From NCBI GenBank assembly GCA_003663325.1, contig QMZT01000006.1:1-39918 (forward strand): a DNA stretch of 39,918 nt, read 5' to 3'. How positions within the stretch are numbered: the first letter of the stretch is position 1; each line of letters starts with the position of its first letter. Shown here piece by piece: positions 26,025 to 26,271 of this stretch. The notes under the pieces are model-generated. The model saw only the letters and a list, made by a program, of their open reading frames with translations. It made no database searches and was not told the DNA's origin. The translations under genes and the position numbers were made by a program. The DNA is from Candidatus Aenigmatarchaeota archaeon. GTDB taxonomy: Archaea > Aenigmatarchaeota > Aenigmatarchaeia > QMZP01 > QMZT01.

Positions 26025-26094
26025 ACCCTCACCGTTTTTATTGTTATGTTTTGTCTTGAAAGCTTTATAAAATTTTGTATAAAATATGTTTACA
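26025..26094. promoter_or_regulatory. Divergent promoter between rps13 and 5S rRNA
   Basis: A 70-bp AT-rich gap. On the plus strand, CTTTATAAAATT (about 26064-26074) lies about 26 nt before the 5S start. On the minus strand, ATTTTATAC/AATTTTATAAAG can serve S13, leaving a leader with GGTGA. The ribosomal protein operon and the 5S gene thus share one control region. Confidence 0.5.
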
Positions 26095-26246
26095 GGGCGG
26101 CCAAAGCGGGGAGGTTCACCCGTTCCCATACCGAAATTGAAACCGCCCTGCAACCGGTGGTTTTTGACGGGAACACGGAAGTTAAGCTCCCCAGCGATGT
26201 GGCTTGTACTATACCGTCATGGTATGGGAAGGCCAGGACGCCGCCC
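26095..26246 (+). rRNA. 5S ribosomal RNA with internal expansion segment
   Basis: Helix I is GGGCGGC (26095-26101) with GCCGCCC (26240-26246). Conserved parts follow in order: AAAGCGGGGAGG, CACCCGTTCCCATACCGAA (loop C), CACGGAAGTTAAGCTCCCCAGCG (26174 onward), and helices IV/V with ATACC/GGTAT and GGGAAGGCC. The span of 152 nt exceeds the usual 115-125 because 38 nt are inserted at 26136-26173. Without that insertion the gene would be an ordinary archaeal 5S. It stands alone, not beside 16S/23S genes, and is divergent from rps13. Ends may be off by one or two bases. Confidence 0.93.
26136..26173 (+). other. 38-nt hairpin expansion segment inside 5S rRNA
   Basis: Extra sequence between ...CCGAA and CACGG..., where archaeal 5S rRNAs read CCGAACACGG without interruption. 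It contains a 9-pair stem GAAACCGCC (26139-26147) with GGTGGTTTT (26156-26164), including two G-U pairs, and an 8-nt loop. GTTCCC (26122-26127) can also pair with GGGAAC (26169-26174), extending helix III beneath the new hairpin. GAA flanks both ends, so the exact boundary can slide by three bases. Confidence 0.85.
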
Positions 26247-26262
26247 ACTTTTTATTCTCCTT
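26247..26262 (+). terminator. T-rich end after 5S rRNA
   Basis: ACTTTTTATTCTCCTTTT directly follows helix I of the 5S gene, an oligo-T stretch suited to archaeal termination. Composition only. Confidence 0.4.
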
Positions 26263-26271
26263 TTACCGTGC

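Follow-up and report, generated by a model that had tools for sequence, protein, structure and literature searches.

Archaeal introns of the bulge-helix-bulge (BHB) type have long been known from 16S and 23S rRNA and from tRNA, with examples in the 23S rRNA of Desulfurococcus mobilis and the 16S rRNA of Thermoproteales (PMC4496867). Their motif consists of a helix of four pairs with a 3-nt bulge on either side (PMC7714728), and cutting falls after the second nucleotide of each bulge (PMC12397907). As a host of such introns 5S rRNA is apparently unreported; we found no earlier 5S rRNA intron in the literature searched, the coverage of which was partial and does not prove priority.

Enlarged 5S rRNAs have been described in haloarchaea and in bacteria. 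That of Halococcus carries a structured 108-nt insertion and is the only 5S rRNA found in its genome; the insert lies at 104.1-105, the one archaeal expansion site given by Stepanov and Fox, and cryo-EM places it, retained, in the ribosome (PMC7530397, PMC7812874). Bacterial expansions occur in loop C (34-37) and at the helix III bulge (52-53), and excision was considered possible by the same authors for inserts that seem incompatible with the ribosome (PMC7812874). Among 645 CPR 5S genes no insertions of at least 100 bp were reported (PMC11270868); introns of 20-96 nt would have escaped this threshold.

We analysed a contig stretch of 39,918 nt from an Aenigmatarchaeota archaeon (GCA_003663325.1, QMZT01000006.1), hereafter the window, in which the 5S rRNA gene is enlarged by 38 nt. 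Sequence comparison makes it highly probable, in our judgement, that positions 26136-26173 are an archaeal BHB intron spliced by the tRNA-splicing enzyme. The locus resembles the introns of 16S, 23S and tRNA in a central helix between two 3-nt bulges, in the NN^N cuts predicted there, in the pairing of the intron 3' end with exon 1, in the canonical RNA left by excision and in the presence of a splicing endonuclease gene; it differs in its host, in the very short inserts found here (20-96 nt) and in the window's helix, which has three of the four pairs and one mismatch. As in Halococcus, a structured insert enlarges the only 5S gene found in an archaeal genome, but here the insert lies in loop C/helix III, outside the haloarchaea, and has BHB geometry. 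The bacterial expansions fall in the same region, 52-53 coinciding with the third of our insertion sites, but both of those tested (L058 and L068) lacked this geometry.

The 5S rRNA gene and its 38-nt insert

The Rfam model RF00001 (5S_rRNA, gathering score 38) matched the window end to end at 26093-26249 with 56.6 bits and an E-value of 2e-9, and the surplus at loop C corresponded exactly to 26136-26173, confirming the gene, the coordinates and the additional 38 nt reported in the initial annotation. The gene scored 98.5 bits with R1, a model built from 35 5S sequences of the phylum, the window's own among them. Helix I, also claimed previously as a landmark of archaeal 5S rRNA, can be read directly (GGGCGGC/GCCGCCC, 26095-26101/26240-26246), both helix III and loop C can be recognised, and the conserved 5S positions are intact. 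The gene is solitary, downstream of a ribosomal protein operon (S13, S4, S11) that lies on the minus strand and is divergent from it. Neither RF00001 nor R1 found a second 5S gene in the assembly (735 kb in 28 contigs, 82% complete), so the check for other copies proposed initially left the interrupted gene as the sole 5S found. Features of the locus are collected in the table.

Table. Observed and predicted features of the 5S rRNA locus in the window.
Feature	Positions	Strand	Remarks
TATA-like promoter element TTTATAAA	26064..26071	+	24 nt upstream of the 5S gene; read from sequence, function putative
5S rRNA gene	26095..26246	+	152 nt as encoded, 114 nt without the insert; basis RF00001, phylum model R1 and helix I pairs
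Central helix, exon strand ACCG	26130..26133	+	opposite 26168-26171, with three G-C pairs and an A.G mismatch
5' splice-site bulge AA^A	26134..26136	+	predicted cut 26135/26136, placed by the BHB rule
Predicted 38-nt BHB intron at site B (E. coli 46/47)	26136..26173	+	excision gives canonical loop C
Intron stem-loop UUGAAACCGCC, loop CUGCAACC, GGUGG(U)UUUUGA	26137..26167	+	11 pairs, one bulged U; abuts central helix
Central helix, intron strand CGGG	26168..26171	+	pairs with 26130-26133
3' splice-site bulge AA^C	26172..26174	+	predicted cut 26173/26174, placed by the BHB rule
T-rich stretch, likely terminator	26249..26264	+	3' of the 5S gene; read from sequence, function putative

Because GAA recurs at both ends of the insert, its boundaries are ambiguous by 3 nt. 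Excision of 26136-26173 restores loop C, CCCAUACCGAACACGG, and a 5S length as in relatives. The 9-pair hairpin and the GUUCCC/GGGAAC pairing described initially are both real folding options, and the rod that they form is the minimum-energy fold of the window 5S; the BHB fold lies 4.1 kcal/mol above it. In the BHB fold, three of the four central-helix pairs are present, the first six pairs of the abutting intron stem are all formed, and both bulges, AA^A and AA^C, have three nucleotides at the BHB register, at which cutting is predicted. The shuffle test gave p = 0.0011 when only the exact site was considered and 0.007 when seven registers were allowed, and in a blind scan the expected excision ranked 18 of 9,315. 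The window's own case is the weakest of the set described below and alone only suggestive; it becomes convincing because a family of inserts shares its geometry.

Two other assignments were discarded. Placing the excision at the upstream site A of the window (UCCC/GGGA) would take out CCGAA, so that the remaining 5S is non-canonical, and the intron stem does not abut the helix. Group I and group II introns have a conserved catalytic core and are well over 100 nt long; the insert has 38 nt, and no intron family reached its Rfam gathering score in the window.

Inserts and predicted splice geometry among relatives

The initial annotation had suggested a search of related genomes for the same insert, and inserts were found at three fixed sites in 15 other DPANN archaea. 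A class-wide survey (class and phylum being equivalent here), run with Rfam 5S and then with R1, yielded 13 intron-bearing genomes (G000, G013, G021, G023, G025, G026, G041, G068, G072, G077, G090, G123 and G125) among about 125 Aenigmatarchaeota with a 5S match, and a pattern scan over named genomes added three Woesearchaeota, giving 18 inserts in 16 genomes. Six of the genes (G013, G021, G041, G068, G123 and G125) had no Rfam 5S match and were found with R1 alone. In E. coli numbering, the inserts lie at site A (40/41, nine cases), site B (46/47, seven cases including the window) or site C (52/53, two cases); the sites are spaced exactly 6 nt apart. Insert lengths range from 20 to 96 nt, the sequences are without obvious likeness, and the 5S genes of G021 and G072 contain two inserts each. 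Distribution is patchy: all eight same-family relatives of the window genome have an ordinary, intron-free 5S of 112-115 nt, G023, G025 and G026, from another family of the same order, carry loop C inserts of 41-52 nt, and G089, G091 and G093, congeners of G090, have none. In Nanoarchaeota, a strict pattern over 371 genomes found only the known case; an RF00001 survey of the same genomes gave the best 150 matches, which hides long genes at the tail, and the number of Woesearchaeota with inserts is accordingly a minimum.

We imposed the BHB rule on each excision that restores a canonical 5S, and scored the 18 inserts. In the canonical register, the central helices had 71 of their 72 possible pairs and the intron stems 93 of 108 (the first six per insert), the 17 inserts other than that of the window each having all four helix pairs; sliding the splice sites by 1-4 bases reduced the central-helix pairs to 8-54 and the stem pairs to 32-56. 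Exchanging intron ends among genes lowered central-helix pairing (p = 0.006, sites B and C) and stem pairing (0 of 100,000). As judged from these pairing comparisons, exon and intron ends covary. Shuffle tests over seven registers, which only partly correct for splice sites having been placed with the BHB rule in mind, gave p ≤ 0.024 in 10 of the 11 inserts tested, the exception being G025 (0.23), and p values of 0.27-0.98 for five control inserts. In blind scans of all splice-site pairs the expected excision took the top rank, alone or in a tie, in 11 of 16 genes, and removal of the insert left an ungapped canonical 5S in every case. For several other introns the BHB fold lay 2-7 kcal/mol above the minimum. 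On the sequence evidence, BHB introns are likely to reside in the 5S rRNA of two or more DPANN phyla; their three insertion points, 6 nt apart, fall in loop C and helix III, their distribution is patchy, and two genes carry them doubled.

Enlarged 5S genes of other kinds were also encountered. Six Aenigmatarchaeota loci (L091, L092, L093, L004, L052 and L050, from G043, G056, G055, G054, G131 and G119, respectively) have additions of 30-45 nt in helix IV/loop D, in which neither the shuffle test nor the blind scan revealed a convincing BHB; these are likely true expansion segments, at a site unlike the haloarchaeal one. The 5S genes of Thermoflavimicrobium dichotomicum (L068, 6720-6801) and Sporotomaculum syntrophicum (L058, 1253-1319) contain inserts after CCCAU/CCCAUCC, and both genera are absent from the main text of the 2021 expansion-segment survey. 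A further six bacterial 5S loci (L057, L061, L063, L064, L067 and L070) show partial tandem duplications or 5'-half joins, L064 containing N, and are probably chimeras or assembly joins.

Splicing endonucleases and a candidate maturation pathway

The window genome has a PF01974 match, a 394-aa protein whose orthology with the ARMAN-2 epsilon2 endonuclease extends over the full length (PDB 4FZ2, 9W2K; residues 7-394 aligned to 4FZ2, E 1.9e-98). All of the residues Y160, K161, K228, Y236, H251, R275, K282 and W384, active-site positions named for the ARMAN-2 enzyme (PMC12397907), are kept in the alignment, and activity on a 5S precursor is predicted. The ARMAN-2 enzyme has broad substrate specificity (PMC12397907), and the relaxed BHB motif of the window fits an enzyme of this type. 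In G041, G090 and G125 the only endonuclease listed has a frame of 199-222 aa and the introns have perfect central helices, which fits a stricter enzyme, although three genomes are too few for proof. Matches to the family were confined to the archaeal genomes among the controls. Splicing endonucleases of Aenigmatarchaeota fall into two size classes, one of about 180-230 aa and one of about 390-435 aa, which occur together in several genomes.

We propose that a 5S precursor of about 152 nt would be transcribed from its own promoter and that pairing of the intron end CGGG with the exon ACCG, which lies immediately before the 5' splice site, would leave both splice sites in bulges of three bases. 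The epsilon2-type endonuclease would cut each bulge after its second base, and the exons would be joined by the tRNA-splicing ligase into an ordinary 114-nt 5S rRNA, then able to bind uL5 and uL18. As unspliced loop C should not bind these proteins normally, splicing would precede assembly of the 5S particle.

The window genome also has a 130-nt tRNA gene (L081, 1276-1405) and an 86-nt tRNA-Ile(GAU) gene (L075, 1501-1586) with extra bases in the anticodon region. Both are probably intron-bearing, although no clean BHB intron could be assigned in the former. As RF00005 found only 12 tRNA genes in this genome, more may be split.

Competing explanations and significance

The initial annotation favoured an expansion segment kept in the mature 5S rRNA and named a spliced intron as the alternative; the intron is now the best-supported explanation and the retained segment, which we consider unlikely, the weaker one. 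Retention would have UUCCC/GGGAA stack on helix III and the hairpin project as a rod from the central protuberance, a situation resembling that of Halococcus morrhuae, although at a different site. The folding energy still favours the rod by about 4 kcal/mol in the window RNA, Halococcus and Thermoanaerobacterium provide proven cases of retained 5S expansions (PMC7812874), and the helix IV extensions of other Aenigmatarchaeota look retained. Yet a retained rod gives no account of non-homologous inserts at three sites that share one splice register and covary with their exons, and the expansion-type control inserts fail the BHB test. Stepanov and Fox describe expansions as having no complementarity to the core and, with one exception, as leaving conserved motifs uninterrupted, and report that insertions at the nearby 42-43 are blocked by uL5 (PMC7812874); the window insert splits the conserved loop C run, and its 3' end pairs with exon sequence in the geometry of the splicing endonuclease, as do the 17 other inserts, which sets it apart from expansions so described.

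It is very improbable that the insert is excised and the exons left unjoined, as a fragmented 5S held by base pairing in the manner of bacterial intervening sequences. Fragmented rRNAs do exist in bacteria and the products of archaeal endonucleases require a separate ligase, but the exon ends coincide exactly with those that a standard BHB splice would leave, loop C forms a hairpin loop that binds protein, and archaeal introns are normally ligated. Least probable of all is that the gene is a pseudogene or an assembly error and that an ordinary 5S lies in sequence missing from the assembly, a reading that draws on the incompleteness and fragmentation of the assembly. The intact conserved positions speak against it, and an artefact is unlikely because independent assemblies carry inserts at the same sites; moreover, no 5S other than the interrupted copy was found in any of the 13 intron-bearing Aenigmatarchaeota, and the genomes of six of these are 87-93% complete.

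If the BHB intron is confirmed, 5S would join 16S, 23S and tRNA among the RNAs interrupted by endonuclease-spliced introns. Introns would also account for the failure of standard models to detect 5S in some DPANN genomes; since six intron-bearing 5S genes had no Rfam match, reported absences of 5S in DPANN deserve re-checking, and the BHB test can sort published over-long 5S genes into introns and true expansions. Maturation of archaeal 5S rRNA would gain an unrecognised splicing step at the binding surface of uL5 and uL18 and, more speculatively, this splicing could act as an assembly checkpoint.
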